The notes beneath the pieces were generated by a model. It had not been told where the DNA came from. It saw only the letters and a list, made by a program, of their open reading frames with translations, and did no database searches. Below, one piece after another: positions 3,741 through 34,440 of a DNA stretch of 53,865 nt. Location of the stretch: contig CADANF010000015.1 of assembly GCA_902789175.1 (NCBI GenBank), positions 1 to 53,865 of the forward strand, given 5' to 3'. The stretch comes from an uncultured Lachnospiraceae bacterium. Lineage in GTDB: Bacteria > Bacillota > Clostridia > Lachnospirales > Lachnospiraceae. Numbering within the stretch: the first letter of the stretch is position 1; the number at the start of each line of letters is the position of its first letter. The position numbers and the translations under genes were made by a program.

Positions 3741-3786
3741 AAAACCTCCTACTGGTTTTGTACCCAATGATAGGTTAACATAAGAT

Positions 3787-5339: not shown

Positions 5340-5822
5340 TTATAAAAACTTCTCTGCAACCTTCTTAAACTCATCCTCAGAAGTTATACCATTCAGCATA
5401 GCTCCTTCTGTTATATGAGCACCAGGCGCACTTCCTTCAAGGTCTTCTACAGAACTACAAAAGCCCGTACTTCCTGATGTTGCGAAAAGAACAATATCCT
5501 TTCCAGATAAATCATAGCTCTCAAGAAATGTATTTATAATGCTTGGGGAAGTATACCACCAGATAGGATATGCAACAAATATCTTGTCATATTGCTGTAT
5601 ATTTTCTACCGGAGCACTTCCGATTGCAGGTCTAAAATTCTTCTTATCCTTCATTTCTACAGAACTACGAGACTGTTCATTTCTCCAATCGAGATCATCA
5701 TTTGTATAAGGAACCTCCGGAACTATCTCATATGTGTCAGCTCCTATAGCCTTTGCAAGACCTGTTGCTGCAACTCCTGTTGTTCCTGTCGCTGAAAAAT
5801 ACGCTACTAATACCTTTGACAT
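5340..5822 (-). CDS. Flavodoxin-family protein
   Basis: 160 aa, the usual length for short-chain flavodoxins. The FMN phosphate-binding loop is YFSATGTT (residues 8-15, the SxTGNT-type loop), followed by the typical YEIVPEVPYTNDDLDW stretch, and the mid-protein FVAYPIWWYTSPSIINTFLESYDLSGK and LFATSGSTG match the flavin-binding loops. Cytoplasmic FMN electron carrier or quinone/flavin reductase. AGGAGG precedes the ATG. It is the last gene before the tandem terminators, but a strong 25-bp palindrome sits between EcsC and it, so it may have its own promoter and regulator. A role in defence is not established. Confidence 0.85.
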   Translation of the reverse strand: MSKVLVAYFSATGTTGVAATGLAKAIGADTYEIVPEVPYTNDDLDWRNEQSRSSVEMKDKKNFRPAIGSAPVENIQQYDKIFVAYPIWWYTSPSIINTFLESYDLSGKDIVLFATSGSTGFCSSVEDLEGSAPGAHITEGAMLNGITSEDEFKKVAEKFL

Positions 5823-5845
5823 TATAATCTTCCTCCTTTATCTCA

Positions 5846-5870
5846 ACTTCTGTTCAAGTTGAACAGAAGT
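5846..5870. promoter_or_regulatory. 25-bp perfect palindrome, candidate operator for the flavodoxin gene
   Basis: ACTTCTGTTCAA, one central base, then its exact reverse complement. It lies 24 bases upstream of the flavodoxin start and before its ribosome binding site. Palindromes of this kind over a promoter spacer are typical of MerR- or MarR-class regulators, but no such gene is adjacent. Confidence 0.5.
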
Positions 5871-5882
5871 AAATTGCCATTT

Positions 5883-6758
5883 CTAATCATCGAGATTATC
5901 AGCATCATCTTCAATAATTACTTCTACTACATCGTCATCCTCAATATCCACTATTTTTTCTTCTTTCCTAAGCTTTTTATAATATTCCGGATCACTCAGG
6001 TATAGGTTCTTAAAACTATTTCTTAGTTTTTTAGCACACGGCTTGAATGTTGCATATGATAATCCACCAGTAACTACACCACCAACTACTGGTACAACTT
6101 TTGAGACACTCTCAGCAAAAATCTGTTTTGTCATTTTAATTCCAACAGCCTGCGCTATCTTTTTTACTATTGGATATATAGTAGTCTTGGTTAATGCCTT
6201 CTGTGCAAGAGATTTTGATACTTTACTTGCAGCCGCAGCAGCCACCTTTTTTACTCCGGCATTTGCACCTTGAACGCCAAACATAACACCCAAAAATATC
6301 ATTATCTGATTCATGGTATCATCGCTGACTTCATCTTCATTTAACTCAAAATCACCAAATCCATATAGATATGCCAATTTTTGCATAGTTCTAATCATAA
6401 AAGCAAAATACTGAGTAATATCAGCAGGTACTGTTGCAGCCATTGCAAATCCACCAGGTATTCCGGCTGCGAATGATAACGCTGTCACCTTATTTGTTTC
6501 ATAGTTGATTACTTGTCGGGCAATAGTATTAACACATTCCCTGCTAACACCAGCAGATGCTGGATTCTCTTTTATTGCCTTTCTTACAACTTTCTCAGGA
6601 TAGTATTTCCTCAATTCTTTTCTTAAGAAATTGCCTCGATTAACTCTGACGATTGGTAACTTAACAGCTTGTTTAACAATTTCAGCAGCATCTATATTTT
6701 TTGTTTTATCTACTACCGCATTAGCAACGGCTTTCACTGGATTTTTTGTTTTACCCAA
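5883..6758 (-). CDS. EcsC family protein
   Basis: About 291 aa. The body (VKAVANAVVDKTKNIDAA..., IARQVINYETNKVTALSFAAGIPGGFAMAATVPADITQYFAFMIR) is the EcsC-family pattern, named after the third gene of the Bacillus ecs ABC-transporter operon; function poorly known. A glycine/alanine-rich hydrophobic stretch near residues 90-120 and the segment VVPVVGGVVTGGLSYATF may associate with membranes; the C-terminus is very acidic. No ATG fits. GGAGGTG is 8 bases before a TTG at 6758, chosen as start; another in-frame TTG at 6773 is possible. Follows the RecD-like helicase by 45 bases in the BREX gene train. Its job there is unknown. Confidence 0.75.
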   Translation of the reverse strand: MGKTKNPVKAVANAVVDKTKNIDAAEIVKQAVKLPIVRVNRGNFLRKELRKYYPEKVVRKAIKENPASAGVSRECVNTIARQVINYETNKVTALSFAAGIPGGFAMAATVPADITQYFAFMIRTMQKLAYLYGFGDFELNEDEVSDDTMNQIMIFLGVMFGVQGANAGVKKVAAAAASKVSKSLAQKALTKTTIYPIVKKIAQAVGIKMTKQIFAESVSKVVPVVGGVVTGGLSYATFKPCAKKLRNSFKNLYLSDPEYYKKLRKEEKIVDIEDDDVVEVIIEDDADNLDD

Positions 6759-6803
6759 GACCAACACCTCCAAACATCAAAACAATATATAATCTGCTTA
6801 TAC

Positions 6804-9800
6804 CTAATCCAACTCTTCCTTTAGTCTATCAACAATCTCCTTAATCTCAGCAGAGTTGATAGCCCCATTCAAAGAATCTTTTGTCACGATAAGATTATCT
6901 CCTTCGACAATATCATGCTTTGCATATATCTTTTTCTTCTCTTCCCAACGCTTGCTATAGCCATAATCTCCAAGCATTCCACAATGCTCCCAGTAGTAAC
7001 ATATACCACTTTCCGCATCCTCTATAGTAAAGTCTGGAATACGCTGTCCATCCTCTCCTAAATCAAGTTCTTTTTCGTACTCGTATTCAATACCGGCTTC
7101 AAAAAGCATATTAGCAATTATTACTTCAGATTTTGAACGTACCAAATCACCTTTTAGCGTCATATGTATCAAAGACTTCTCAAAATATCTTCCCTTATAT
7201 TCTGTAATATCAGGGACTTTGAAGAGACAAGTAAGTCGTTTGGCAACCTCAGAATATGACATATCCGCATAATCACGAAGTTTAACAGCATCATCATTAT
7301 ATAAGATAACTATCTTATTTTTCTGTCTTGTTATAGCAGTATATAGAAGCTCTTTAGAAAGCATCCTGCTTGGTTCTCCAAGAACAAGAATTGCCGTACC
7401 AAATTCACTCCCCTGTGATTTATGGACAGTCAGCGCATATGCAAGTTCTATATCAGAATTCCCTTCATCTGATACTGTGGAAAACCATTTATATGCACAA
7501 TCCGGCTGTGACGAAAACCTAATCTGGTGAGTCTTTGGACTTCCTTTATCCCACAATCTTTCTACAATCCCGACTTCACCATTTGCCACATAATTATTAT
7601 CCGGTCCTTCAGGATAACCTTTACTTCTCTGATTTCGTATATTTATTACCTTGTCTCCATATACAATTCCATCAGTTCCAAGAACATACTTCGTTCCTCT
7701 GATTTTGCCATGCGGCATTTCTATCATAGAAGTAGATCTATATCTTTCATGGATATACCTGTTAATAGTTGATGTTCCTATACCTGCATCATTTCTATAT
7801 GCTGATAGTATTTGCCAATCTTCAACTTTCAATGGATATGTTCCAAAATTCATCCAACCATTGGTTATGACACCACCTAACGATAGATTAAAACCTTCTA
7901 TATCATCCGGGTCTGACATTTCCGTTTCGTTAGCTATAACCTCAAATATCTTTTCTTCCAGTTCTTCAGGCGTTGACCATTTCTTAAATTCAACTCTTTC
8001 GCCAAGCTTTCCCGACTGTAACTTAATGAATATATCTTCATCTAAATCCGATGGATTATCTGTATACCACTTTGCAAGTTCGGTATCTTCACGAATTTCA
8101 CCATCACCGGCAAATTGACGCATAATAATTGTAAGCTCACCAAAGCCTTTGGCTACCTTTGGAAATTCATTCGCATCTTTATTAAGCTCTTGCACCAAAT
8201 CAACAAATGGTCTTCCTGCTCCTATTGGCGGCAACTGGTTAGGATCTCCAACAAATATTATACGTTGAGCATTTTTCTTAAGTGCTTGAAGAAGTGCTCC
8301 AAACATTTCCTCAGTCAACATGGAGCTTTCATCTATAATTACTGTATACGGAACATTCTCAGCCTCTTTATCAGAAAGAGTATATTGCATTGAATAACCA
8401 TTATATCTCTTACTCTCACTTAAAAACTGAGCAACTGTCTTAGCTTTGCAATTAACCTCATGGTCTTTCATTGCCTGAACCATACGCACTCTTGCTTTGC
8501 CTGTTGGCGCAAGAAGGAGAACTCCACCATCTCTTACCTGCGGAGACTTGCAAAGCAATGCAAGAAGAGTCGTTTTCCCAGTTCCAGCTCCACCTATAAG
8601 AACAGAAAGTCGTGACTCAGCTAATTCCTTCAATATAGCAACTCTCTCATTTCTTGCCATATCCTTTTCTTTGAAGTCCGGAATATTTTTTCTTGCAAAC
8701 TCATCTTCAACTATCTTGTTCCAATCTTCGTTAATTACATGTCTTTTACCTTTAAGTCTCTTCTTTACCGAAGAACGTATCACTTCATCAAATTCATTTA
8801 GTCTATTAAGTTGATATGCCCTGCTATTATCCTCACATGTGACTACTTTTAACTCTTCCTCTAAGAAATCATCTATACTGTTAAGTACATCTCCTGTCAC
8901 ATGACAAGCTGGTTCAATAGCAAGCTCATTTAATCCTCTTATAATAAAATCCATAGGATAAACGGTATGTCCTTCAGCAGCCTGGTTCTCAAGATGACTT
9001 ACCACATATGCCCTTACTCTTCTTTCATCATTATCAGAATCAATCATTGTAGGTTCTTCTAGTGGTTTTATGTTTCTGATAATCTCCGGAGGGAATACAG
9101 CCATATCAATCTTCTTGGCAGTTATTATATACTCCGATACAAGACATCTGGTTTTTTCATAAAGAATATATGGATTCTCTAATATATCTTTATCAGAAAC
9201 AGTGATTCCAAGATGCATTCTCTCTTCCTGATTAAATATAGTGTATGCCTGCTCCTCACTTAATGAAATTCTGGACAATAGCCAAAATAACTTTTTTCTT
9301 TCTTCAGGAAGTGTTAGTAGAACCTTTGCTGCAGTTTTACTAACAGCTTTGAGAGCCTTTCCTTTCAAATATTTCTCAGGTTCAGCAAATATTTCCTCAA
9401 CCTTAACCTCAAAATCTGATTCATCATTTATAAGTCTCTTAATTTCATTATTCAGCACATAATTATGAGTAAAACCTACCGCATACAGCATTGACTCAAA
9501 GCCCGGATAAACACCTCTTTCAAGCCAAACTTCATTTAATCTTTCTCTTGTCCATTTAATACATTCATTCCAATTACCAGGAATACAATCCTTAATGATT
9601 TCAAGGCTCTTAATAATCTGCAATAGAACACTTATTACCGCATCATAAGATAAATGCTCAGTAGCATAAGAAAACTCATCAAAATACTCGTCATCTGCAA
9701 ATACAGTAATGCTCCTAATATCAAAATCAGGGTGTTCTTCTGCATATTCCATCATTTCCCGATACGGCAAGAGAAAACCATTTTTTCTATCATCTCTAAT

Positions 9801-10487
9801 AGAATGTCCAAGCATCGTTTCCCATAAAATAGAACGAATCTTTTTCTTTTCAGTATAATTATGCTCAGGAGGTTCTGTGATAGAAACAATATATCCTACT
9901 CCCATAACAACTCTTTTTGCATCATCTACAAAAGGAACCTGTTTAGCATATGGAATCATCAATGATTTATTTGGCTCTACGTTCTCATAAAAGGTTTTAA
10001 ATATCGCCCTCTGATTTTCCGCATCCTGCGCCCAGTTTGTTTTAAAATATAAATCAGGTTCTTTAGTCGGATCAAATCCTATATCATACTTTTCAATTAA
10101 CCCTTTTATATTCTCATTATTGTTCTGTCCACTCTTATTAAGCATTGTCCACGCATAAGGTCTGGCAGGGAATGAAAATGGTGGATAAACCAGTTCAGTC
10201 TCCGTAAAATGCCCATGCGTACTAGGCGAAGTATTTGTGTATGGATGAACTGTTGTCCGAATATATGTATCTTCAGACATAAAGCATCCGCCTTCGTTTA
10301 CACATGGTATTTCATTCTCATGTCCCTTAACCGCAGCTCCTGCAATGGTTGATTCAAATTCATCATTTCTTGCGCCTGCAATATTTTTCAACCTGAGACA
10401 CGCATTATTAAAACATGGCTTATTACAAACAAAACCGTTATATCCATTATCTTTCCAAGGTATTCTTACCGATAAATGTTGAGCCAT
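6804..10487 (-). CDS. RecD-like SF1 helicase with Cys-rich N-terminus and nuclease-like C-terminus
   Basis: 1227 aa. N-terminal domain (about 1-120) opens with SVRIPWKDNGYNGFVCNKPC and several further Cys/His, probably metal-binding. The helicase core has Walker A GGAGTGKTT (about 630), DESSM (about 715), GDPNQLPPIG (about 740) and TVHKSQGSEF (about 1015), as in RecD2/TraA-type SF1B helicases. The last 120 residues carry SKSEVIIANML, RIPDFTI and YYWEHCGM, the E...PDF...(E)xH spacing of a PD-(D/E)XK-type nuclease fold in which the final K is replaced by H. It lies 17 bases after the GHKL ATPase and is likely co-transcribed with BREX. Inferred role: DNA unwinding and cleavage in defence; catalytic activity is unproven. 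Confidence 0.8.
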   Translation of the reverse strand: MAQHLSVRIPWKDNGYNGFVCNKPCFNNACLRLKNIAGARNDEFESTIAGAAVKGHENEIPCVNEGGCFMSEDTYIRTTVHPYTNTSPSTHGHFTETELVYPPFSFPARPYAWTMLNKSGQNNNENIKGLIEKYDIGFDPTKEPDLYFKTNWAQDAENQRAIFKTFYENVEPNKSLMIPYAKQVPFVDDAKRVVMGVGYIVSITEPPEHNYTEKKKIRSILWETMLGHSIRDDRKNGFLLPYREMMEYAEEHPDFDIRSITVFADDEYFDEFSYATEHLSYDAVISVLLQIIKSLEIIKDCIPGNWNECIKWTRERLNEVWLERGVYPGFESMLYAVGFTHNYVLNNEIKRLINDESDFEVKVEEIFAEPEKYLKGKALKAVSKTAAKVLLTLPEERKKLFWLLSRISLSEEQAYTIFNQEERMHLGITVSDKDILENPYILYEKTRCLVSEYIITAKKIDMAVFPPEIIRNIKPLEEPTMIDSDNDERRVRAYVVSHLENQAAEGHTVYPMDFIIRGLNELAIEPACHVTGDVLNSIDDFLEEELKVVTCEDNSRAYQLNRLNEFDEVIRSSVKKRLKGKRHVINEDWNKIVEDEFARKNIPDFKEKDMARNERVAILKELAESRLSVLIGGAGTGKTTLLALLCKSPQVRDGGVLLLAPTGKARVRMVQAMKDHEVNCKAKTVAQFLSESKRYNGYSMQYTLSDKEAENVPYTVIIDESSMLTEEMFGALLQALKKNAQRIIFVGDPNQLPPIGAGRPFVDLVQELNKDANEFPKVAKGFGELTIIMRQFAGDGEIREDTELAKWYTDNPSDLDEDIFIKLQSGKLGERVEFKKWSTPEELEEKIFEVIANETEMSDPDDIEGFNLSLGGVITNGWMNFGTYPLKVEDWQILSAYRNDAGIGTSTINRYIHERYRSTSMIEMPHGKIRGTKYVLGTDGIVYGDKVINIRNQRSKGYPEGPDNNYVANGEVGIVERLWDKGSPKTHQIRFSSQPDCAYKWFSTVSDEGNSDIELAYALTVHKSQGSEFGTAILVLGEPSRMLSKELLYTAITRQKNKIVILYNDDAVKLRDYADMSYSEVAKRLTCLFKVPDITEYKGRYFEKSLIHMTLKGDLVRSKSEVIIANMLFEAGIEYEYEKELDLGEDGQRIPDFTIEDAESGICYYWEHCGMLGDYGYSKRWEEKKKIYAKHDIVEGDNLIVTKDSLNGAINSAEIKEIVDRLKEELD

Positions 10488-10504
10488 AATCTTCTACTCC
10501 ATTT

Positions 10505-13500
10505 CTACAGTATCCCCGTAATCACATATTTTTTTCCATTAAATCTGACTTCATCATCAACCTTATGTCCCAAGAACGCTTTATGCAGTGGAAATTTATC
10601 AGGTTGAATCGTATTATCATATACGGAGCCATCCTGCTTCTTATATGTCACAAAACTTCCTTCCACCACAACCTCTTCGTGCTCTGTTATAGCAGCCACC
10701 TCATCATCTGCAAATATATTTCTTCTTGAAACTCTTATGGTTGACGTATCACGCTTATCTTTTCCAACATCATCAAAAGCATCTCCGCTCTCAGCTTTTG
10801 GCAGTCCATATTCTTCTATAAGCTGAAGAAGTGTCTGTATCTCAGTAATATGAGTCTGTGTAAAATGAACAGTCATATCACCGGATATCTTTATATCGTA
10901 AGTATCGGCTTCACTTCTTGAATCTATGCTCTTAAGTGCATATCGAATCTTTGACTTAAAGTCCTCTTTATTTATATCCCTTATCCTCTTATAATTACTT
11001 GCACAATTAGGGCACAGACACATATTCATCTGAGGAAGCTCCATGCCAAAATTAGATATCTCAACAGCTTCCACATTATCTGTAGGATTCATACATATCT
11101 GACAGAGCTTAATATTGTCATCATTCGTATACATTCCAATAGCATAAGCTCTAGCATTCTTTGGCGATTTGCTAACTCTTATACTTCTCCATACTTCCTT
11201 ATAAGTTATAGGATCTGCACAGAAGAACTCTTCTCTAACATGACGCACAAGATTATCTATACTCTTAACCCTATGTATCGGAAAATCGTTAGATGTCCAT
11301 GCATTTGCATCAAATGTATCATCATCTTCATCATATGAACTATCACTATCGGATACGGTCTTGCCAAGACTTCTTGCTAACTGATTCAGAAGAATCATTT
11401 TGTCTCTTCTTGGCATACTATCAACCATTGCAAATGCATCTGCTGTTGTGTCTGCAGCTTTCTCAGTAAAACCAAGGATAGTATATGCCTCCTTCATGGG
11501 AAGCACCTGACCATATATAGTATCATCGAGTTCATATTTAGACAGTTCATCTATTGAATGAAGCTGACCATCCTTACCATAAAGCCATCTGTAATATGAA
11601 AAAGTTCTCAGCAAGTCTGCCTTTTCTTCCTGTTCATAAGGATTAGTTTTTCTATAACTGACATATCCTTTTAGTTTCCTTGCATTTAACAAGATTAGCT
11701 TAAACAAAGCTGCTGACTTTCTTTTTGTAAGCTCTATATCGGAACCATCTTCGATATATGATAAGTTATCTTCAAGAAAAACAATATCTGCTTTAGGGCA
11801 GAACTCTCCCTTTGCTACCCAGTGACTATCTCCATGTCCTTCCTGCCTTCTGATACCATCTTCAAAAGGACTTATAATAACTCCCAGCTTATCGAAAGCA
11901 TCCATAGAAATATCATTCTTCTCATAGAATTCAACATCAACGAAGTCAACTTCAAAGTCATATTCCTCATCATATAAGGTAAACGGAGCATAATAATCTT
12001 TCAGATTCACGCCTTCCTTTGATATTGGTAAGCTTGCATTTTCCGGGCATGCAAATATATCATCTTCCGCCTCTATCTTTATGATATATGCATCTTTCGC
12101 AAGTTCTTTTATCTCTTTCAGTTCACTTTCACTGTCTACTGACGATATAAGCTGCAATAACTGCTTCATATCTTCAAGATATTCAGGAATAAAATCATCT
12201 TCATTATCAAAATTTATCCTATCAGAGTCAGAAGCGTACTTTCTAAGTATCTTTTCCTTAACAAACTGGAAGTTATTAAACTCTGCAATCTGAAACCCAT
12301 CAATCAAAACATCCTTGCAGCTATCAGCTACAGAGCGTTTAACTATAGCAGATGATACTATCTGTTTGTAATTACTTGATGAAGAAAGATAGAGCATTTC
12401 CTGTCCATCAACATATGCAGGTACCATCTTATTATCTGCATTTAGCACTATAGGTGCTTCTCTAAGAGTCTCCCAAGCTTTAGGTAATTGCCTTCTTATG
12501 GTAGATACATAAGCTCCGCCTCTTGAATACTCAACCCCGGAATCGTAATATTTCTCAGTATTATGATTTAAGAATCTGTAAAAATCCAATAAATCCTCAA
12601 AATTCTTACTATGGCTATCTACAGTTCTGCCACCAATCCGCTTCAGATTAAAAGCCCAGTCTATAAGTCCAAACTGCTTAACCTTAAGATCATCTGTAAG
12701 CCAGATGAAATATTCCATAAAGTAGGATTCTCTCTCATTGTTAATAGAAACAAACCTTGGTACATTATCAAAGCTCTCAGCAAAAAGTGGTCTATCTCTA
12801 AAAGTGCCAATCTCATGAGGAACAGGTATACGCAAATCTTTTGCTCTTGCATAATCTCCCAAGCGGTTAGGGAATATAGCTTCCTTTAGGAATACATTTG
12901 TAACCTTCTCTTTAAGTCCCGGAATCGTATTATTCTCTTCTTCATCTTTAAAAGCCTGCATCAATGTACGACGAATAAACATCTGAGTAATAAGCTTCTT
13001 ATCCCTCAGTGTAATCATGGACTCTGCTATAAGGTCTCCCAATTTATCAAAAAGTGCATCATTAAAAGCTGATGGTGTCATCAGTTTTTCTCTTGATACT
13101 GCCGTTTCAAATGAACCATGAATAAGGAACGGAAGGTTTGTATTATCTCTCGTAGGGAAATATACCCACATATCCGTATCTTTCAGCTCATTTATGTTAT
13201 CGCCTCGGCTGTTCAGCTTATATGCAACACTTACCTCAGCATCCGTCATCTTCTCATGATCAAATGTCTTCTTAAATCGAAGATACTTGCTAATCTCTTC
13301 CTTATCGTTATGACCACTTCCCTCAATCCTACAAGTTACAAGCCTTTCATCAAGCTCATCTTCTTTGAGTGTAATCATTGCATATTTATTTGTAGACCTA
13401 TCAATCCAAAAGAGATTCCTGATTGAAGAAAGAAATAAAAGGATCTCCCCATTTAGGCTTTGAAGTTTATCAAGTACATCCTTCCCTGGTACAGAATACA

Positions 13501-14050: not shown

Positions 14051-14069
14051 AATCCTTCTCCTGTGCAGT

Positions 14070-17627: not shown

Positions 17628-17655
17628 GTCTTTTGCACCTCCCGCTGTATATCGC

Positions 17656-20172: not shown

Positions 20173-20176
20173 CTAT

Positions 20177-20407: not shown

Positions 20408-20410
20408 AAA

Positions 20411-21132: not shown

Positions 21133-21215
21133 GTTCAATCCTCCTCGTTTTATCATATTAGATACTATAATCAAATCAGATACTTCCAGTAAATCCATAA
21201 TAAATCACACTCCAA

Positions 21216-24944: not shown

Positions 24945-24947
24945 CTC

Positions 24948-27900
24948 TTAAATCTTAGATAATAAATCTATAGTCTGCTTCTTTTCTCCTTCACCACCGA
25001 CTTCAACACCTTGGAACTTAGCATAATTCACCTTCACTCCATCATCGAGATCAATGTCTATCCTCTGCATAGCCACATGAGATAAAGCCTGATAATATGG
25101 TTTTATCTCCGCAAGCTGCTTAATATACTTATCTCTTTTTCGTGTATTAGAGGCTCTATCTACAGCACTCTCAGTATTTGCAATAGCATATTCAGCATTC
25201 TTTAACGATGCTTCAATAGCATCCTGAGCTTTCTTTAAATACACTGAACGAATAAGCCCAACCGTATCGGGTGTATATCTATGCATGTAAATAAGACACT
25301 TAAATCCATTTTGCTTACCAGAATCAAAGAGCCAGTATATAGGTCTTTTTCCAGAACCAGTAACTGAATATGTACTACAGTGGTCTTTGAAGAAGTCATT
25401 TAAGAAGTAGTTTCTTATCACTTCTCTTGATGTATTTCCTTTATTACCAAGTGCTTTTGCTATGTAGTCCAGATTGCTTTCCAATGACTTATTGCCATAC
25501 ACAGTACGGATAAACTCTACAAATCTTGTAACTATATCATCATCAAAATATTCTTCATCTGTTATAGGAATAATAGCATCATCATCTGCTGCAAATGTTG
25601 TATATCTGGATGAATCAAAATCACCACCTGCATATATAAGTCCGGTTTCATCAAGAGAGTATCTTCCAAACATGCAACCTACTGCATATGAGATAAGTGA
25701 CTTTATATCCCTTGATAAATCTGCTTTGCGTACAGTCACATCCTTATCCTCTACCTCAGGAGTTAATTCATCTCGAAGCCCATAAATATCAATAAAGATA
25801 CCATTAAGTTCTTCTTCGTTTTTCTTAAGCTGTTCAAATCGTTCTATACACTCGTTTTCCCAGCAGGTAAAACATTCAGCTAAATCAATGTCATCTATAT
25901 CAGTAAATAGCATTCTGTTATTAGAGATAACTGAAATTAGTGGATGTCTTTCAAAATCCCATGATGCTTCAAATGAATCCCAATCGGATTTAGATAATTC
26001 AATATTATGTTTTGACAAATTATTTACTATGCTATCCTCATTACCTTCAATATATGGTAAAGCTAATATATTCATAACCTGATAACTAATGGTCGGATTA
26101 GTTACTTTAAAAATTTCATTTGCAACTTTTGAATTCATAAATGCACAAACATATTCGTTAGTAATCTTCTTTTTGGCATAAACCGAGGAACCTTTTGAAT
26201 CACTCAAATATCCATTCGGGAAGAATCTGCATGAAAAATCCCCCGAACTAATAGATGTCCATGTTACTCCAGAAACAAAATGATATTTTGCATTTTCAGT
26301 TCTTGCCCTAGTTAGTCCTTTTCCATCATCTATCCATTTCAAAACATAATAATTATTTCCATACCATTTCCTATAATCGCCCCCTTTGTTATAAGGAACC
26401 CAAACATTATTAGGATGTTCATCAAAGGACTTAACTGTTGTACAGAATCTCTTATAACTTATTTCATTCCATGAGCGTAAATATAGATTATTATCGCCAG
26501 TTATAATCCCTTGAAACGAAGCACAATAGTTTTCTAGTTTTTTTGCATTTTTAAAAACACTAATAAAATGTTCACTTATCCAATATGCTATTGGTTTGCC
26601 ATCAATGATATTGAAATTATCTTGATTTGACTCATATAAATAACTATTATCTTTACCAATAATTGCATCAATTACTTTCTGTTCTTGGATTTTCATTCCG
26701 CCTTTAAAATTTGTCAGTCTAAGATATTCTCCACATCTATTATATTTCTTATTACACATGACAAAAGTGCATAAAGGTACCGTTGCCTCTTCAAAAGCTG
26801 AGTATTCTAATTGGATTAATGTTACAATTTCTTTATTATCTATAATTTTCTTTCTTGTCTCTTCATATGTTTTCAAAAACATCCAAACCATTGGCGTCAT
26901 AAAACCTAAATAACCATCTGTTTTGCAATTTTCAAAATTTTTTATCATAAATATACTAAACATATCACTTGAATAATCTTTATAATTTTCAAGAACAAAT
27001 GATTTTAATTTAGAATCAAATCGATTCATATATGGAGGATTAGTAACAACAGCAGTATATTGTCCACACATTACTATTGCTTGATTTGCTAATACAATCA
27101 TAGCTTTAATATCACTTTCACTAATATAGTTTTCAAATGAAATTTCGTGGTTTTCTAACCACTCCTCACAATATGTTATGAAATTTTTGTAATCATATGT
27201 TTTAACACTTATAATAGAACCATATTCTTTTGCATCATAAAAAACACCATACAAATAATCAGCAATTTCTTTATGATTGCAATCCATCCAATCGAATGAT
27301 GTTTTACTTATACTGTTACTCTCATCTATCACATGAATATGTGGACTAACATCTTTTATTAGTATTCTTCTATCATATTGTCTAGCCTTCATTAAAACTG
27401 CAAAATACGCTAACTGATAAGCACGTTTATCTATATCAAGACCATATATATTATTTTCAAGAATTGAATGAATGGCATCTCTTTCGTTATAACCGCATTC
27501 TTCATAAATCATCATCAATACATCAATCACGTAGACAATAAAATGTCCAGAACCCATACAGTTGTCTAAAACACTTATCTCTTCTGGTTTAACCTTTTCA
27601 GAAATATAATTAACAACTCCATTCTTTGGTAACACTAAATACTTTAGTTTTTCGGCTAGTTCACTTTGAGGATTTCTTTCTATCCAATACCTACCAACAG
27701 AATTATCAACTATATATTTAACTACCCAATCAGTTGTAAAAAGTTGAGTAGCAGCAGGTATATCTTCTTTTTTTATTGAACCACCTTTTAAAACATTTAT
27801 CACCTTATTCTTGGGTTCAGTATTATAATATTGATAAAGCCATCCTATTATTTCTACTTGTCCTTTTTTTTCAACATTGAAATCATCTTCTTCAACATCA

Positions 27901-28499
27901 TCAACGAGCATACGAACAACACCGTCGCTTGTGTATGAAATATCAAGTAACAGCTCCATATAATCATCAGTCTTTTCAAAAAGTCCAGGCAATATCTTAT
28001 TAAGCTCATTACACTGTTTTACAAAGAGAAGTTGAAATGCATCATCAAATCTATTATCATCCTTTGCAGCTTGAATCTTATCTATCTCATCAGCAGACAG
28101 ATTCAGGTCTACATCAAGAGAATGTGTAACAATATCCGGTGTAGAGCTTCCAGTCTCTGATGATAAAACTCTTACTCTTGTTGGGAGATAATCATTTACT
28201 TCCATGAATCTGATTGCAATAAGTCGGTTAAACCAAGTATATGCAGTTTCTTCAATGACCTGCTCAAACCCTTTTTCCTTAATTACATTAACAAGATTAG
28301 AACGCATCTTTAGTTCTTTACTATAAAGGCGAATCTCATCTCCAGCTATCGTCTTATACACCTCGAAATCTGCGCCCTTTTGGATTGGCTTACTACATTC
28401 ATCTATGGTTATCCCATACATACCTGCCTTCTTAATAGCAGATTCTCTAAGTATCTTTCTTGATTCTATTGCAAAGTTTTTAATTGCAGTCTTATCCAT
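24948..28499 (-). CDS. pglX: BREX-1 adenine-specific DNA methyltransferase PglX
   Basis: 1183 aa from MDKTAIKNFAIESRKILRE, the standard PglX opening, with GGAG 7 bases upstream. The longer frame to 28550 would overlap brxC and lacks this support. SAM motif I is LDNCMGSGHF (about 310) and catalytic motif IV is TNPPYM (about 485), typical of N6-adenine methylases. A target-recognition-like region and a helical C-terminus follow. PglX methylates host DNA at a non-palindromic site as the self mark for BREX and is also needed for phage exclusion. No frameshift or phase-variable repeat is visible. The recognition site cannot be predicted from sequence alone. Confidence 0.95.
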   Translation of the reverse strand: MDKTAIKNFAIESRKILRESAIKKAGMYGITIDECSKPIQKGADFEVYKTIAGDEIRLYSKELKMRSNLVNVIKEKGFEQVIEETAYTWFNRLIAIRFMEVNDYLPTRVRVLSSETGSSTPDIVTHSLDVDLNLSADEIDKIQAAKDDNRFDDAFQLLFVKQCNELNKILPGLFEKTDDYMELLLDISYTSDGVVRMLVDDVEEDDFNVEKKGQVEIIGWLYQYYNTEPKNKVINVLKGGSIKKEDIPAATQLFTTDWVVKYIVDNSVGRYWIERNPQSELAEKLKYLVLPKNGVVNYISEKVKPEEISVLDNCMGSGHFIVYVIDVLMMIYEECGYNERDAIHSILENNIYGLDIDKRAYQLAYFAVLMKARQYDRRILIKDVSPHIHVIDESNSISKTSFDWMDCNHKEIADYLYGVFYDAKEYGSIISVKTYDYKNFITYCEEWLENHEISFENYISESDIKAMIVLANQAIVMCGQYTAVVTNPPYMNRFDSKLKSFVLENYKDYSSDMFSIFMIKNFENCKTDGYLGFMTPMVWMFLKTYEETRKKIIDNKEIVTLIQLEYSAFEEATVPLCTFVMCNKKYNRCGEYLRLTNFKGGMKIQEQKVIDAIIGKDNSYLYESNQDNFNIIDGKPIAYWISEHFISVFKNAKKLENYCASFQGIITGDNNLYLRSWNEISYKRFCTTVKSFDEHPNNVWVPYNKGGDYRKWYGNNYYVLKWIDDGKGLTRARTENAKYHFVSGVTWTSISSGDFSCRFFPNGYLSDSKGSSVYAKKKITNEYVCAFMNSKVANEIFKVTNPTISYQVMNILALPYIEGNEDSIVNNLSKHNIELSKSDWDSFEASWDFERHPLISVISNNRMLFTDIDDIDLAECFTCWENECIERFEQLKKNEEELNGIFIDIYGLRDELTPEVEDKDVTVRKADLSRDIKSLISYAVGCMFGRYSLDETGLIYAGGDFDSSRYTTFAADDDAIIPITDEEYFDDDIVTRFVEFIRTVYGNKSLESNLDYIAKALGNKGNTSREVIRNYFLNDFFKDHCSTYSVTGSGKRPIYWLFDSGKQNGFKCLIYMHRYTPDTVGLIRSVYLKKAQDAIEASLKNAEYAIANTESAVDRASNTRKRDKYIKQLAEIKPYYQALSHVAMQRIDIDLDDGVKVNYAKFQGVEVGGEGEKKQTIDLLSKI

Positions 28500-28518
28500 T
28501 CCACTTCTCCATTTCCTA

Positions 28519-31500
28519 TCAGCTAAGTCTGATAATCGTGTCCTTGCCAAGCTTACTCTTTAATTCTTTTCTTATCTCTTCTACAAAACTATCTATATCC
28601 TCTTCTGTTCTAATTGTATAAGCCTTATTTCTTGTAAGAGACCTCATAGTTACCGGAACTGTTCTCGGAGGTGTGACTTTTACTACAGGAGGAACTTCTG
28701 ATGGATGTGTATCATCCCCACCTTTTTCAGGCTTTTGTAAACTCTTCTGGTAGAAGTCCTCCTCGGTATTAATTTTTCCTAAGAATATCGTAAGAAGAGC
28801 ATTACTCTCATTTGGTATTCCATTTAATGCAGCTATATCATTAGTTGTTTCAAGCTTCTTTATAAGGTCTCCGAACTTAGTATCTACTTCCTTGGATAAT
28901 CTGTCAGAATATGGTCTGCCCTCCGGAACAGACTCTTTAGCAAGTTTCTGATCTGCTTCTACACCTGGTCTGATAACTTCTGCATCCTTATCAAGTAACT
29001 CTGTGATAGCAGCCGCAAGCTTGTTTGCATATTCTTCCATCTTAGAGATATGTCGATATGGCTTCTCTACATGCTTTATCTTTCTTATCTGCTCAGCATT
29101 ATCAATTATCTCTGCATCAGCTATATAATTCTTACTCTTTTCAAATATTGCATAAGCTTTACAAGCTTTCAGATATATAGCTTTCTGTGAACCACCAAGG
29201 AACTTCTCAAGGTCTATAAGGTCTTCCGATAATTCATCAAAATCATCAAACAGCTCATCTACTCTCTTATAGAAAGTCATAGGATCGCTTATTCCATACA
29301 CATCATCTATAAGTCTGATTGCCTTTTCTATAACCGGCTTACCGGGAAGTTCTGAACCCTCTCCATATTCTTTTGCAAGCGTTCCAAGAAGATTCTGTTT
29401 CTTGTTTGTGCAGTTGGTTCTAAAATCACGCATAAGCGAATCAGTGTCATCTGTCATGACTGTTCTATTAAAGAAGTCCTTAATAACATCTTTTACAGAT
29501 TTCACCCATTTAGGATTCGGAACTGCCTTAATCTCAAGAAGTATCTTTTCTCTGTATTCTCGTTTCGTTATATACTTATAAGCCTCATCCGCAGGAGTAC
29601 TTGCAGGACTATATATAACGCTGTTCATCTTAAGAGATATAGAGCCATTCTTATAAAGTTTAGCTATAAGAAATTCTATATCTTCTTCTGTATAACCATA
29701 AGGAGCTATCATATACTTATCAAAAGCCTGCTTTATTGATAACTTAGCTCCAGTTCTATTTGCATACTGTACTGTTGCTATTAAATCATTTAGAGCATCT
29801 ACATCTATATCCTCTTCTTCTATACCATCTAATGTAAGCTGAGTCTTGGTAGCACGAAGAAGCTCTAATATATCAGCCTGAGTTGGTTCAGATTTCATAT
29901 CATTGATTTTGCTATACTGAGACTGTATAAGCTTAGCAAATGCTTCATTTATCCTTGATGATGCATCCTTTGAATTTGTTGATATCTTAGCGCCATGTAC
30001 ATATATATCAGCTCCATCAAGAGAAAACTTAATATAATCCTTTATACGCTTTGCCTTCTCTGTTCTCTCTTTTCTCTTAGCAGCAGAAATTACATCATAA
30101 TCAACAAGATTTGTATAATCCGGCTTGTTAAGGAATGTCTCAATCTTCTGCATATCTTCGATTTCTGAAAGATACGGATAGGCATCAGATAATCTTACAA
30201 TTACGCTCTTTTCTCTTGTTGACATTACTCCAAGCGCATATTCATCTTCCTGACCACTGTAAGCTGTCAGTATATGAAGTCCAATAGCTCCAGTCTGATT
30301 CGTATTTCTATAAAATCTGTCATCTATCTGCTGATTAAATGAGAATGAATGTCTGTTATCGTATTTATATTTATTATTTGTGAATACAAGCAACTCTTCA
30401 AATACAACTCTTGCTGTGTAATTAACCACATCGGAAGGATCCACATGGATAGAACGGATAGCATTTTCTGCTTCCTGCTCTTCATTGGTAAGGAATATAT
30501 ATTTATCCCCATTCTTCTGTACGAGGAGTTCATCACACAATACTCTGAGAGACTTCTCAATCTTTTTCTTTAATTCAAGCGTATCCTCTGACACTGAAGA
30601 AATCATTAGAGTTGTAAGATTCTCAACATTGCCATCAAAATTGTTTACATGCTTTATCATAAAAAGAACCTTAAGCAGCTCCACATCAAAAGCGTCCAGT
30701 CTGGAATTTCTCGCAGCCTGAGTAATAACTATCCTATGTGTATGATCTATGAAATCGTCTAATGCGCTGTAAAAAGCATTGAAAGGAATAAGAACACCTT
30801 CATCCTCATCCTTATATTTTTGAGCCGCCTCCTTAAAGAGTGCCAGCATTGAACGCTCGCCATCTGCGAGGTGCTTTCCGCTTGAACTATACTGTCTTAC
30901 TGATGTAAGGACATTTCCAAGCAGTTTAAACTGATATGGAATAAATGGATATACTTCAACAAAATCGTCTGCATCCTTATAAAGTGGCATATCCGGTGTT
31001 CCGGAACTAAATGTAATAATATGCTTTAATGTATCTCCATGTTCGCTATAAAGTGCTTTAAGTACACCAACAGCCTTATCATCTTTATATAGAATACGCT
31101 TACGAATAACCTCATCAACATTAGCAGATGACAGAGCTATCCTTGTATCAAATCTACCCTGAATCTTAGAGAAATCATCACTCATAGTTTTGGTAATAGA
31201 ATCAATATCCTGCTGACTTGTCACTATAACCCAAGCTTTTCCTCGGCAAGCTGTACCTAAATCCTCAGCAACAGTCTGAAGATTAACCATAAGTTTACTG
31301 TCATCAGCTATATACTGACCTATCTCATCTACAAGGAATAAGATGTGATGATTACTCCCCTTGCTTTCGCAGTATCTTCTTACATAATCCGCAAACTTTT
31401 CTATTGATAAGCTATATGAACTCTGTGCATTTTCTGCCCAGTTCTTGGCTTCGCTTTCGCTCATGATACCAAGAGATACAACTGACTCGATAATCTCATC

Positions 31501-32139
31501 TTGAATAAAATAATAATCCTCTCTTGACTCTTCCCAAGAAGAACCATTTACCTCTGCAAACTTCTCTTTAAACTCTTCATATCTGCCATCCAAATCAAGT
31601 TTTCTTTCAAACTCAGCAAGGAATGGGATTGAGCCACAATAACCAAGATGATCATTAAATACTTTCATAAATACATCTTTAATTGCTTCTTTATTCATCT
31701 TAGAGTCGGATTCACTCTTAGAATCTATATTGAAGAGAATTACATCTGTATCATCTGCAAGCGATGATATATTATCAATCTTGTCTGCAAGGCTCTTATC
31801 CTCTACCTTTACACCATCCATGAAGAAGCTTGCAGCAGTCTTTTCAGAACCGTTCTCATCGGTAACAGATTTATTTGACAGTATATAAGACAGAATCTTC
31901 AAGAAATGCGACTTACCACTTCCAAAGAAACCGGAAATCCACACACCCATCTTATCAGTCTTTCCATCAATGCCTCTCTTATATGCATCAAAGAATCTTG
32001 ACATATATTTTGACAGTTCAGAAGTCACAACGTATTCTTCAAGCTCCTGATATACATTTTCTTCATCGGCTTGTCCAACTTTGATTACTCCCTTTATATC
32101 TCTGTCTATACCCTTATAAAACATATCTTGAATCTTCAT
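28519..32139 (-). CDS. brxC: BREX ATPase BrxC
   Basis: 1206 aa, the normal BrxC length. N-terminal MKIQDMFYKGIDRDIKGVIKVGQ is diagnostic for BrxC/PglY-type proteins. Walker A is SGFFGSGKSH (69-78) and the Walker B-like LFLVDEIGQYI lies near 265-276. A large helical body follows, with a proline-rich linker near the C-terminus (PPVVKVTPPRTVPV). BrxC is an essential AAA-type ATPase of BREX and is reported to interact with other core subunits. It begins 11 bases after brxB and ends 19 bases before pglX. Confidence 0.95.
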   Translation of the reverse strand: MKIQDMFYKGIDRDIKGVIKVGQADEENVYQELEEYVVTSELSKYMSRFFDAYKRGIDGKTDKMGVWISGFFGSGKSHFLKILSYILSNKSVTDENGSEKTAASFFMDGVKVEDKSLADKIDNISSLADDTDVILFNIDSKSESDSKMNKEAIKDVFMKVFNDHLGYCGSIPFLAEFERKLDLDGRYEEFKEKFAEVNGSSWEESREDYYFIQDEIIESVVSLGIMSESEAKNWAENAQSSYSLSIEKFADYVRRYCESKGSNHHILFLVDEIGQYIADDSKLMVNLQTVAEDLGTACRGKAWVIVTSQQDIDSITKTMSDDFSKIQGRFDTRIALSSANVDEVIRKRILYKDDKAVGVLKALYSEHGDTLKHIITFSSGTPDMPLYKDADDFVEVYPFIPYQFKLLGNVLTSVRQYSSSGKHLADGERSMLALFKEAAQKYKDEDEGVLIPFNAFYSALDDFIDHTHRIVITQAARNSRLDAFDVELLKVLFMIKHVNNFDGNVENLTTLMISSVSEDTLELKKKIEKSLRVLCDELLVQKNGDKYIFLTNEEQEAENAIRSIHVDPSDVVNYTARVVFEELLVFTNNKYKYDNRHSFSFNQQIDDRFYRNTNQTGAIGLHILTAYSGQEDEYALGVMSTREKSVIVRLSDAYPYLSEIEDMQKIETFLNKPDYTNLVDYDVISAAKRKERTEKAKRIKDYIKFSLDGADIYVHGAKISTNSKDASSRINEAFAKLIQSQYSKINDMKSEPTQADILELLRATKTQLTLDGIEEEDIDVDALNDLIATVQYANRTGAKLSIKQAFDKYMIAPYGYTEEDIEFLIAKLYKNGSISLKMNSVIYSPASTPADEAYKYITKREYREKILLEIKAVPNPKWVKSVKDVIKDFFNRTVMTDDTDSLMRDFRTNCTNKKQNLLGTLAKEYGEGSELPGKPVIEKAIRLIDDVYGISDPMTFYKRVDELFDDFDELSEDLIDLEKFLGGSQKAIYLKACKAYAIFEKSKNYIADAEIIDNAEQIRKIKHVEKPYRHISKMEEYANKLAAAITELLDKDAEVIRPGVEADQKLAKESVPEGRPYSDRLSKEVDTKFGDLIKKLETTNDIAALNGIPNESNALLTIFLGKINTEEDFYQKSLQKPEKGGDDTHPSEVPPVVKVTPPRTVPVTMRSLTRNKAYTIRTEEDIDSFVEEIRKELKSKLGKDTIIRLS

Positions 32140-32150
32140 TTGTAATCCTC

Positions 32151-32726
32151 CTAATCCACTAACGGAAATGCTCTATAGTAGTTTCCATCATTGATAGTTC
32201 CGAACAGTTCAAGCGTCTGTCCATTCCATCGTCCGGGATAAAACATAACAACCGGAACCTTATCAAGCACCTGATGCAAATTGTTAAGTACATTATGTGA
32301 TCTGACAAAAGGGAAAGCCTTTCCTACTCCAGTCAGAAATACAACCGACTTATCAGGTGTATTATTAACTATATGATTGACTATCAGATTATCATCATTT
32401 GTAAGTCTGAGTAGTTTTCCTACAGCGTTATATAAATAATCCTGCCCCTTAGTTTCTTCAAACTTTATACACTTATCTATATATCCTCTTTCTTCAAGGA
32501 TACCTATGATGATTTTATACAAGTCAAATTCTACTATCTGGAAGCCGTCAGCATCTTTGTTGTTCTGCTTTTCCAACGCTTTTATCTTTTCTCTCACCAC
32601 AAGCTCATCGCATGGCTCATAGTCAAATACATAATATCTGACTTCATTTGCTACACCTTTGTTAGCAAGGAAATCTTCATCTGATATTCTGTCCCATATC
32701 TTATCGAGTCTTTCTCCTAAATCCAT
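32151..32726 (-). CDS. brxB: BREX protein BrxB (DUF1788)
   Basis: 191 aa. GERLDKIWDRISDEDFLANKG at the start and the VVFLTGVGKAFPFVRSHNVLNNL and PVVMFYPGRWNGQTLELFG segments are the DUF1788 signature. BrxB is a core BREX subunit without a known enzymatic activity, needed for both methylation and exclusion in type 1 systems. The start codon directly abuts the brxA stop codon. Unlike BrxA, BrxB has no DNA-binding motif that I can see. Confidence 0.93.
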   Translation of the reverse strand: MDLGERLDKIWDRISDEDFLANKGVANEVRYYVFDYEPCDELVVREKIKALEKQNNKDADGFQIVEFDLYKIIIGILEERGYIDKCIKFEETKGQDYLYNAVGKLLRLTNDDNLIVNHIVNNTPDKSVVFLTGVGKAFPFVRSHNVLNNLHQVLDKVPVVMFYPGRWNGQTLELFGTINDGNYYRAFPLVD

Positions 32727-33338
32727 TTACTTATCTCCTGTCAGTGCGTATAAATATTTTTCCATATCATTTGACATCAATCCCTGTCTAAGTTCCTGCT
32801 CTATATAAGGCTTGATTACTATCTTTTCAGACTTTGAAGATTCTGAATTCTTGAGCAACTGAGCCTCAAGCATATATTTCTGAAAAGTCTGTTTTAATTT
32901 CTTGATGGCACTATCTGTCCACTTGGCGCATACATCACTTTGCTCCTGCTTACTACGAAAGAACATATTCAGATCTGAATCTTTAAGTGTCTCTTCTTCC
33001 ATTCTTATCTTTTCTCTAAAAACCTCATACATTAGCTCAAAGAAGAGCCTGTCTGTTGCCATGATTGATATAAGCACTATCAGCTTTGATGTCATAATGT
33101 CCGCATCAGATATCATATACCTTAATGATTCTGGTAAACTCATAATGCGTTTACTGATAACACTAAACTCACGATTTAATCTATCCTCTGACTTTTGCTG
33201 ATATAGATTATCGGAAATAACAAGATTCTTTACTTCATCTAAGCTCTTATCTTTTAATAACTTGACTGTTTCTTTAGTTTCTATATACCAAAACAGCTTA
33301 CTTACGCTACCTGCACTATATTCCATGATTTTAACCAT
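32727..33338 (-). CDS. brxA: BREX protein BrxA (DUF1819)
   Basis: 203 aa. YSAGSVSKLFWYIETKETVKLL, a helical middle with LPESLRYMISDADIMTSKLIVLISIMATDRLFFELMYEVFREK, and the end RQGLMSNDMEKYLYALTGD match DUF1819/BrxA. BrxA has a helix-turn-helix-like fold and binds DNA in characterised systems. Two starts are possible (33338 and 33326, M5); the second has GGATGG 8 bases upstream. Five bases separate it from the WYL regulator. Confidence 0.92.
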   Translation of the reverse strand: MVKIMEYSAGSVSKLFWYIETKETVKLLKDKSLDEVKNLVISDNLYQQKSEDRLNREFSVISKRIMSLPESLRYMISDADIMTSKLIVLISIMATDRLFFELMYEVFREKIRMEEETLKDSDLNMFFRSKQEQSDVCAKWTDSAIKKLKQTFQKYMLEAQLLKNSESSKSEKIVIKPYIEQELRQGLMSNDMEKYLYALTGDK

Positions 33339-33343
33339 CCACT

Positions 33344-34330
33344 TTATCTATAATTTTCCTGATTCAATGTCATCAAATCCTGAAGCTCATTTATAACTAC
33401 ATCAGGTGATTTAATAACAACCTTTCCTCCAAGAGATATTATCCAACCCAAGAACTGATCACTTACAACCACATCCACTCTGGCTTCAAAGTGTTCATCA
33501 TCTACTCTCATCAGATTAGTTTCTTTTCCAAACTGATCTATGATAACGTTAGCCATTTCATTCTTACAGAGAAGCGTTACCCTCTCTTCTTTTCCACCGA
33601 ACATTCTAAAATGCTTTTTGGTATATAGTTCTTTATCTAACTTATCAAACTTTACTTTACCTTGACGTTTTTGGTCAGTTTCTTCTGTATGAAGCATCTT
33701 ATCTACTCTATAGTGCTTGAATTCGTCAGCTTTTTTATCATATCCAACCAGATAATAATTCTCATCATCCCATAATAGCGCCCATGGACTTATATCGTAA
33801 AACGCCCCATTATGACGTAGCTCCATCTCGCCATCTACATTCCAGAAATAATACTGGAACTTTATCCGGTGATTATTAGCTATGGCATACTGGATGGCAT
33901 CTACCGTATAAAAGATGCTTTCATTCATGTTCTTTACACGGTTTGAAACATAGACATCTCTATCTATGAGTTTTGCATCATAATTACTAGCCATATGCTC
34001 AAGCTTTTCTATCAGCTCCTTTGACTTCTTAGTAGTAATAAACTTCGAAGAGGCTATCGCATCTATAATTATGTGCAACTCTGCAAGTTCAAAATCTCTC
34101 GCACCACAATAGTAATATGTCTTATTTCCAACCAGTTGCTTAATTATCTCTATCCCAAAATCACTAAGAGCAGCCAGATCGTCATATACACTTTTTCTTT
34201 GTGCCTCAATATCATACTTTTCGAGTTCTTTGATAATTTGAGGCATGGTAAGTCCATGAGTATCGTCTGTCTGCTCTTGCATTATTTTAGCCAAATATAA
34301 CAGCTTCAGTTTTTGATTTTTACCCCTCAT
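33344..34330 (-). CDS. WYL-domain transcriptional regulator, BrxR-like
   Basis: 328 aa from MRGKNQKLKLLYLAKIM, with AAGGAGC 8 bases upstream; a longer frame to 34387 has no ribosome binding site. Order: winged HTH (about 5-75, with TMPQIIKELEKYDIEAQRKSVYDDLAAL), WYL domain (about 140-230, with PWALLWDDENYYLVGYD), WCX C-terminal domain. BrxR proteins of this architecture sit directly upstream of brxA and repress BREX operons by binding inverted repeats; position and orientation here agree. An imperfect inverted repeat at 34415-34431 is a candidate binding site. The WYL ligand is unknown. Confidence 0.85.
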   Translation of the reverse strand: MRGKNQKLKLLYLAKIMQEQTDDTHGLTMPQIIKELEKYDIEAQRKSVYDDLAALSDFGIEIIKQLVGNKTYYYCGARDFELAELHIIIDAIASSKFITTKKSKELIEKLEHMASNYDAKLIDRDVYVSNRVKNMNESIFYTVDAIQYAIANNHRIKFQYYFWNVDGEMELRHNGAFYDISPWALLWDDENYYLVGYDKKADEFKHYRVDKMLHTEETDQKRQGKVKFDKLDKELYTKKHFRMFGGKEERVTLLCKNEMANVIIDQFGKETNLMRVDDEHFEARVDVVVSDQFLGWIISLGGKVVIKSPDVVINELQDLMTLNQENYR

Positions 34331-34377
34331 AGCACTCTGCTCCTTATACCCATAAATACGAACAAAAACTATCTCTG

Positions 34378-34440
34378 ATTGTACCATATTTTAGTGTATT
34401 ATTAAAGGGACAGTTACAACAAAATGTTGCATTTTTACGC
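34378..34440 (-). promoter_or_regulatory. Candidate promoter and operator upstream of the WYL/brx genes
   Basis: On the minus strand TGGTACAAT (extended -10, 34378-34386) lies about 48 bases before the WYL start; no strong -35 is visible. TACAACA-AAA-TGTTGCA (34415-34431) is a near-perfect 7-3-7 inverted repeat, a plausible WYL/BrxR operator. The motif CGTAAA..TGCAACATTT here recurs upstream of the CPBP gene at about 38790-38808. This would allow internal transcription in addition to readthrough from the microprotein genes. Confidence 0.4.

Follow-up and report, generated by a model that had tools for sequence, protein, structure and literature searches.

The window analysed here, a stretch of 53,865 nucleotides on contig CADANF010000015.1 of an uncultured, gut-type Lachnospiraceae bacterium (assembly GCA_902789175.1), encodes a bacteriophage exclusion (BREX) system of the type-1 clade that lacks BrxL. 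BrxL is an MCM-like motor, and in related loci its gene mostly follows pglZ directly; in one clade of PglZ proteins, to which the window belongs, that slot directly after pglZ is occupied by a module of a HEPN-SNF2 helicase gene, a GHKL ATPase gene and, optionally, a RecD-like gene. We give a probability of about 0.5 to the reading that this module functionally replaces BrxL, and favour it over the presence of two independent systems that share a transcript. The genes of the module would then act together in defence. The operon is read on the minus strand from 34387 to 5340, with the module genes, an EcsC-like gene and a flavodoxin gene following pglZ:

33344..34387, minus strand: WYL-domain regulator in a BrxR-like position, 5 bp before brxA (PF13280 4e-11, PF25583 5.6e-6)
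32727..33338, minus strand: brxA (PF08849 1.8e-49, over cut-off)
32151..32726, minus strand: brxB (PF08747 6.5e-43, over cut-off)
28519..32139, minus strand: brxC ATPase (NF033441 1144 bits, cut-off 400; Pfam gives BrxC domains only)
24948..28550, minus strand: pglX adenine methyltransferase, BREX-1 type (NF033452 1294 bits, cut-off 500)
21216..24944, minus strand: YobI-type P-loop ATPase of 1242 residues, accessory (PF20693 1.6e-105)
20411..20914, minus strand: DUF3990 protein, accessory (PF13151 2.5e-48)
17656..20172, minus strand: pglZ, BREX-1 type A (TIGR02687 532 bits, cut-off 270)
14070..17627, minus strand: fusion of HEPN_Swt1 and a RapA-type SNF2 helicase, first gene of the BrxL slot (PF18731, PF00176, PF00271)
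10505..14050, minus strand: GHKL (sacsin/Hsp90-like) ATPase (NF047352 82 bits, cut-off 50)
6804..10487, minus strand: RecD-like gene, the optional third gene (PADLOC PDC-S68 1439 bits)
5883..6773, minus strand: EcsC-like gene, operon end (PF12787 1.6e-5, below the Pfam cut-off at 25.1 vs 30.4)
5340..5822, minus strand: flavodoxin_4

The module is tightly packed, with 28 bp between pglZ and SNF2, 19 bp between SNF2 and GHKL and 17 bp between GHKL and the RecD-like gene, and its three genes span 10.8 kb. A preliminary description, drawn from the sequence alone, had listed the genes from the brxR-like regulator to EcsC on one strand in this order and had pointed to the three large genes in tight succession; profile matches bear out both points, the YobI-type ATPase and the DUF3990 gene between pglX and pglZ being the ones it missed. 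The profile of the window's WYL regulator has no match at the corresponding place in the related genomes G305 and G395. The EcsC-like gene and the flavodoxin were considered as further parts of the module and rejected: the window's EcsC profile is without a counterpart in the related loci scanned, and for the flavodoxin tblastn gave no counterpart in related loci.

The preliminary description had also taken the system to be BrxL-less, and a genome-wide search with the BrxL profile PF13337 found no brxL gene elsewhere, giving no match in the window's genome (99.64% complete, 78 contigs). The profile likewise had no match in any of ten genomes, namely the window's own and nine holding an SNF2 relative, a window-clade PglZ or the module, which include five with BREX and the module (G000, G305, G395, G001, G013) as well as G635, completeness figures covering six of the ten. 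The search evidently works, since the same profile found BrxL in 9 of 28 genomes holding SNF2 relatives; in a control search it was found in 2 of 14 named genomes. BrxL is reported to be present in 76% of type-1 BREX systems (PMC12839542), so the gene is not strictly required for the type-1 clade. It is described as needed in the Escherichia coli and Acinetobacter systems and not in that of Salmonella, and the role of BrxL, as well as the reason why only some BREX systems need it, is presented as unsettled (PMC11341690, PMC11842806, PMC12205998).

The position of the module was assessed against BREX-1 loci anchored on PglZ, which was found over its cut-off in 43 of the 397 genomes of the window's family. 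Outside the window, 42 of 45 family-level PglZ places (three at contig ends were left out) and 20 of 22 class-level places were fetched, and 59 of these 62 loci were judged, one having no called PglZ open reading frame and two having less than 700 bp to the right; the absence of BrxL was judged within the stretch fetched. A BrxL of at least 200 residues is encoded in 46 of the judged loci, a remnant in 3 and none in 10, among which one (G395) carries the module. Of the 46 BrxL genes, 35 come immediately after pglZ, with a median gap of 17 bp over the 35 and a gap of 8-27 bp in 27 of them, and the distance from pglZ to SNF2, 28 bp in the window, is 33 bp in G395. Outside the window's clade, with G395 and G635 set aside, BrxL or its remnant is found in 49 of 57 loci and the module in none. 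In this set BrxL is absent in 3/3 window-clade loci versus 8/57 others (Fisher test, p = 0.005), and the module is present in 2/3 versus 0/57 (p = 0.002, or 0.03 without the window).

In the phylogenetic trees, the window PglZ falls inside the BREX-1 PglZ-A proteins, and the window, L001, L014, L017, G305, G395 and G635 form a single Lachnospiraceae clade with a support of 100 in the approximate likelihood ratio test (SH-aLRT). Six of its seven rows have the module, none shows BrxL and one (G635) has neither, whereas the two rows nearest to the clade both carry BrxL; the module label is clustered on the tree, where not one of 500 shuffles gave so low a value, with the near-copies left in. The consistent replacement of brxL that the preliminary description had in mind is thus seen within this clade and breaks down in G635 and in the 8 BrxL-less loci among the 57 others, which are without the module. 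The order pglZ, SNF2, GHKL, RecD-like recurs in G305 and G395 with brxA, brxB, brxC and pglX upstream, and since these operons share only 41-81% protein identity with the window, gene by gene, the order is not a recent accident.

Two further loci of the survey concern the same slot. In L119 (G635) the window-clade pglZ, with neither BrxL nor module, is followed by a WYL regulator. In L098:4739-9319 the gene after a BREX-1 pglZ encodes the restriction enzyme GmrSD; no BrxL is seen in the stretch, and GmrSD is possibly another occupant of the BrxL slot.

The module is by no means confined to BREX. A scan of genome contigs with the window SNF2 protein gave 38 loci, which, with the window itself and six loci from searches at family and order level, make 45 contexts. 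A GHKL gene is next after SNF2, at a gap of -4 to 134 bp, in 36 of the 39 loci that extend 700 bp or more to the right of SNF2 (L018, with SNF2 split in two, is counted among the 36); the exceptions are L008, with the order GHKL, RecD-like, SNF2, and L030 and L038, which have broken SNF2 copies. The hosts include Lachnospiraceae, Oscillospiraceae, Candidatus Poribacteria, Crenothrix, Methylococcaceae, Alpha- and Deltaproteobacteria and the archaeon Methanocalculus. A full-length pglZ adjoins SNF2 or stands one gene off in 6/45 contexts (window, L001, L014, L017, G305, G395), and a pglZ fragment lies directly before SNF2 in 2/45 (L002, L003). Taken as a standing family, recognised by SNF2 followed directly by GHKL and including the window, SNF2-GHKL is a self-standing pair and not a BREX component by origin, and it forms the core of the module, to which the RecD-like gene is an optional addition. 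A minority of contexts have a superfamily 1 (SF1) helicase next to the pair: a RecD-like gene in the window, G305, G395, L008, L024 and G404 (split in two frames), with a remnant in G377, or a giant UvrD-like protein in L023, L026, G364 and G633, and L019 has a UvrD protein upstream. In L001 a Fic-domain gene follows GHKL, and in G250 and G140 (L079, L081-L082; the G140 GHKL is in pieces) a RecD-like gene precedes GHKL directly, the stretch fetched containing neither SNF2 nor BREX.

The claim of the preliminary description that a multi-ATPase module takes the place of BrxL consequently stands for a BrxL-less BREX-1 lineage with the module in the slot, and needs the amendment that its genes are not BREX components by origin. 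Of the three genes it proposed, the SNF2-GHKL pair is near-constant, and the RecD-like gene varies. A fixed BREX set of HEPN-SNF2, GHKL and RecD-like genes is rejected, because SNF2-GHKL is widely found without BREX and the third gene differs; the recurrence of the gene order in other genomes agrees with the original proposal, and the frequency of the pair outside BREX goes partway to the random association that would speak against it.

In the SNF2 tree the BREX-linked copies fall together with L002, L003, L004, L005, L006 and G404 in a clade of 12 rows (SH-aLRT 100), in which G305/G395 branch first (support 87 for the other ten), and the PglZ and SNF2 trees contain the same three pairs, window/L001, L014/L017 and G305/G395. 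The early branching of G305/G395 and the pglZ fragments before SNF2 in L002 and L003 make it the simplest reading that a BrxL-less BREX captured the module and that BREX was then repeatedly lost with the module kept, a history for which the SNF2 tree alone cannot separate gain from loss. Plasmid records matched GHKL only in part (16 records, none covering 80%), and 47 phage records matched the RecD-like protein, two of them covering at least 80%, in unannotated faecal contigs labelled phage. An order-level search with PDC-S68 matched at least 286 of 295 genomes, mostly over short lengths that probably reflect ordinary RecD-type helicases, and five near-full-length non-window matches and one partial match were fetched from it.

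Several relatives of the pair stand out in composition. L023, L026, L134 (G364) and L136-L137 (G633) have a triad of a second kind, made up of a HEPN-less SNF2, GHKL and a giant UvrD-like protein (1131-1924 residues). L008:1407-18815 holds, on one strand, GHKL, RecD-like and SNF2 genes, a PLD-fused superfamily 2 helicase and another GHKL protein, which matches TIR below the threshold. In L005:7604-18480 a DndB-domain gene lies upstream of an SNF2 protein 66% identical to that of the window, which stands beside a 1593-residue GHKL protein with two sacsin-domain stretches.

The SNF2 protein, for which RapA is the closest solved relative, has a HEPN_Swt1 domain at residues 14-128 with the motif RNSWAH, and the RNx[WY]AH motif is kept in 25/25 aligned rows that hold the domain; the domain is absent in 15/40 aligned SNF2 rows (L006 is cut by its contig, and the L029 row is a second, more distant SNF2). 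In the GHKL protein, the AlphaFold2 model, with a predicted local distance difference test (pLDDT) score of 80, matches GyrB, Hsp90, MORC and MutL over residues 18-463, and the variable C-terminal half, for which Pfam gives nothing credible, bears a conserved CxxC...CxxC element that by eye suggests a zinc element, perhaps HNH-like without the histidines. Structure comparison matches the RecD-like protein to RecD2 and RecD folds, mainly over model residues 460-1043 of a weak model (pLDDT 63). Its C-terminal part, with no Pfam name in the window and none above cut-off in G395, is a predicted nuclease on the strength of a conserved motif and predicted alpha/beta elements. Between the window and L001 the proportion of nonsynonymous differences (pN) in SNF2 is 0-0.02 at a synonymous proportion (pS) of 0.03-0.27, and the ratio of nonsynonymous to synonymous rates (dN/dS) of the RecD-like gene between G305 and G395 is 0.04; judged by these values, these two genes are under purifying selection.

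The GHKL gene follows a different course. Between the window and L001, PglZ is 98% and SNF2 99% identical, whereas residues 600-900 of GHKL are strongly different (pS 0.66-0.81) after a first 600 residues of 96-100% identity; PglX is similarly different over residues 200-900 (pS 0.58-0.73) between ends of 96-99% identity. Both segments are exchanged blocks, which may represent paired changes of specificity. Likewise, G305 and G395 share 87% identity in PglZ, 88% in SNF2 and 95% in the RecD-like protein versus 50% in GHKL. For 79 pairs with an SNF2 identity of 60% or more, the identity of GHKL is lower than that of SNF2 in 78, with a median difference of 25 points and an extreme of 90 vs 32 in L020/L032. 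By these comparisons, divergence or exchange affects GHKL far more than the genes around it in the operon, a behaviour that would fit a sensor role.

The most serious competitor of functional replacement is an arrangement of two separate, co-transcribed systems, in which a BrxL-less BREX relies on PglZ alone for restriction, and an autonomous SNF2-GHKL pair, with or without an SF1 helicase/nuclease, has come to lie behind it in a defence island. Each system would sense and act for itself, co-transcription only coordinating expression. We regard this account as quite possible at somewhat less than even odds, and several observations speak for it or otherwise weigh against replacement. The pair is found without BREX in many hosts, and 37 of the 45 SNF2 contexts, some on short contigs, have no adjacent pglZ or remnant; because the pair persists without BREX in most loci, any dependence of it on BREX is conjectural. 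It has been kept where pglZ decayed (L002, L003), and the same SNF2 clade includes the BREX-less G404 and L005. BREX-1 with neither BrxL nor module exists in G635 and in the 8 loci noted above, and an empty BrxL slot may not need refilling, since the Salmonella system is reported to defend without BrxL. In G364, one contig carries a BrxL-type BREX and another a separate SNF2-GHKL-UvrD-like triad, and the HEPN-less triad of L023 has a BrxL gene some 7 kb upstream. As for sampling, L001, L014 and L017 were found via SNF2 and G305 via the RecD-like search, and they therefore attest the arrangement but not how common it is; only the window, G395 and G635 are PglZ-anchored, two of the three with the module and the window being the starting point, and the near-copies (window/L001 and L014/L017) leave three BREX lineages. 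The L017 contig ends inside SNF2 and its genome lies outside the BrxL search, and L014 (Oribacterium) has a 650-residue gene without a Pfam match (L014:8026-9978) between pglZ and SNF2 as well as a broken RecD-like gene. In the GHKL comparison, the difference is no more than about 3 points, or is in the opposite direction, in 5 of the 79 pairs, counter-examples being L015/G377 (83 vs 82), L007/L016 (97 vs 96) and L009/L011 (96 vs 100); since the slow helicase core inflates the contrast and the pairs are interdependent, contrasts within an operon carry more weight. Against two separate systems speak the position of the module in the BrxL slot, immediately behind pglZ, the lack of any pglZ with both BrxL and module in the 59 judged loci (the module being present in only 1/59), and the agreement of the PglZ and SNF2 trees in their pairings across three diverged BREX lineages.

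The intact HEPN motif of all HEPN-bearing rows would also suit a fail-safe, in which BREX together with PglZ restricts and HEPN-SNF2 with GHKL serves as an abortive-infection backup that halts the cell by cleaving RNA when BREX is inhibited or failing, and backup nuclease effectors, HEPN included, are described as a theme beside BREX in PMC12839542. We nonetheless think this unlikely: GHKL is still the next gene in most of the SNF2 rows that lack HEPN, so the main job of the pair appears to be independent of that domain, and a helicase-nuclease as third gene points to DNA. A chance or decaying neighbourhood of defence-island remnants without joint function might be read from cargo genes (YobI, DUF3990, DUF2971, Fic) that come and go in the operon and from RecD-like genes split in G404 and broken in L014, yet it is very improbable, being largely contradicted by the selection data; pN is very low relative to pS, the SNF2 and GHKL frames are open in the window, L001, L014, G305 and G395, the motifs are conserved and the pair adjoins in 36/39 loci.

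If the module does replace BrxL, PglX would methylate self DNA, and a BrxB-BrxC-PglX-PglZ complex would engage unmethylated phage DNA, which PglZ would nick; PglZ is described as a metal-dependent nicking nuclease complexed with BrxB, BrxC and PglX (PMC12205998, PMC11842806). The SNF2 motor could then load on the nicked DNA in place of BrxL, while GHKL, dimerising on ATP like other GHKL clamps, may license this motor as a switch or sensor. The RecD-like enzyme would unwind from the nick or break and its nuclease degrade the DNA, with the HEPN RNase as a last-resort arm. What GHKL recognises is probably a phage feature or inhibitor, and this would account for its change alongside a constant PglZ and SNF2. 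Such a substitution of an SNF2 motor, an ATP clamp and a helicase-nuclease for BrxL is plausible, with parallels in BrxHI and BrxHII. In a more specific form, which we hold tentatively and at a little under even odds, the position after pglZ would be an exchangeable effector slot, where one lineage has swapped BrxL for a widespread SNF2-GHKL(-RecD-like) defence machine with GHKL as a cassette-exchanged sensor and HEPN-SNF2 as the constant effector.

Compared to known systems, the window resembles type 1 BREX in its PglZ type A, PglX, BrxC, brxA and brxB, all over their cut-offs, and differs in the lack of brxL, in SNF2-GHKL-RecD-like after pglZ and in the YobI and DUF3990 genes before it. With type 3/5 BREX it shares an SNF2 helicase where BrxL is absent, and the window protein resembles RapA, as does BrxHII (PMC12839542). 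It is unlike them in the N-terminal HEPN domain, the GHKL and RecD-like partners and the single brxC and pglX. Type 5 BREX has duplicated brxC/pglX, and the window operon has one of each. The SNF2 protein scores 380 bits with a DrmD profile, 210 with BrxHI and, scored without a curated cut-off, 139 with a BrxHII-labelled profile, far below the DrmD value. The helicases DrmD of DISARM and DpdE of Dpd are among its best helicase-profile matches, at 298 bits vs a cut-off of 610 and 188 vs 500, respectively, and its assignment as a DrmD or RapA equivalog is rejected on the curated cut-offs. Class 1 DISARM is not supported by the same DrmD score, and no DrmB or DrmC profile is among the matches listed for nine proteins. 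BREX-Related type 1 (Hma) needs a DUF499 ATPase and is likewise rejected, the window ATPase being BrxC by its NF033441 score. The RecD-like protein is a full-length match to PADLOC PDC-S68, which we take to be a single-gene candidate, and in the window it is the third gene of a module. GHKL ATPases adjoining SNF2 helicases have been described in MORC/paraMORC restriction-modification operons linked to HNH/EcoRII-like nucleases and methylases (Iyer 2008, PMC2292703), to which the window pair, inside BREX, is likened by gene arrangement. A HEPN Swt1-like domain fused to SWI2/SNF2 (WQE_15321, 'active') has been noted by Anantharaman 2013 (PMC3710099), where the passages available give no BREX/Pgl link or GHKL partner for it and link other HEPN families to Pgl. 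The literature retrieved, as far as its text was accessible, holds no description of BREX with GHKL and SNF2, and the main text of PMC12839542 has no mention of GHKL, HATPase, HSP90 or RecD, although its supplementary effector lists may include such loci. No description of the arrangement was found under the PADLOC name TmtA, and no name was found for the SNF2-GHKL(-RecD-like) module as a defence system.

The interval between pglX and pglZ has the appearance of a site for cargo. Its two genes come with gaps of 301 and 238 bp, and the region of the YobI-type ATPase has a low G+C content of about 0.29-0.31; a diverged copy of this gene (33-37%) has the same place in G395 (L117/L138), and none was found in G305 or L001. 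The DUF3990 gene precedes pglZ in L001 too (99%), with a weak profile match before pglZ in the BrxL-type BREX of L092, and the junction holds DUF2971 and a duplicated pglZ 5' fragment in L001 and a YhcG nuclease in G395. Mobilisation genes flank the BREX locus, with MobC and a relaxase at 35926-37768 and a large resolvase/recombinase at 1926-3827, and the locus probably rides on an integrative mobilisable element. A 2729-residue methyltransferase-helicase protein at 43814-52003 and a 1048-residue protein with Zeta-toxin-like and nucleotidyltransferase domains at 40608-43754 are probably cargo of a mobile element.

The SNF2-GHKL module looks like a widespread defence candidate in its own right, with a strikingly exchangeable GHKL subunit, and its occurrence on its own suggests that the working end of BREX is interchangeable. 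A natural BrxL-less lineage with a motor-clamp-nuclease module makes it testable which activity must follow PglZ.

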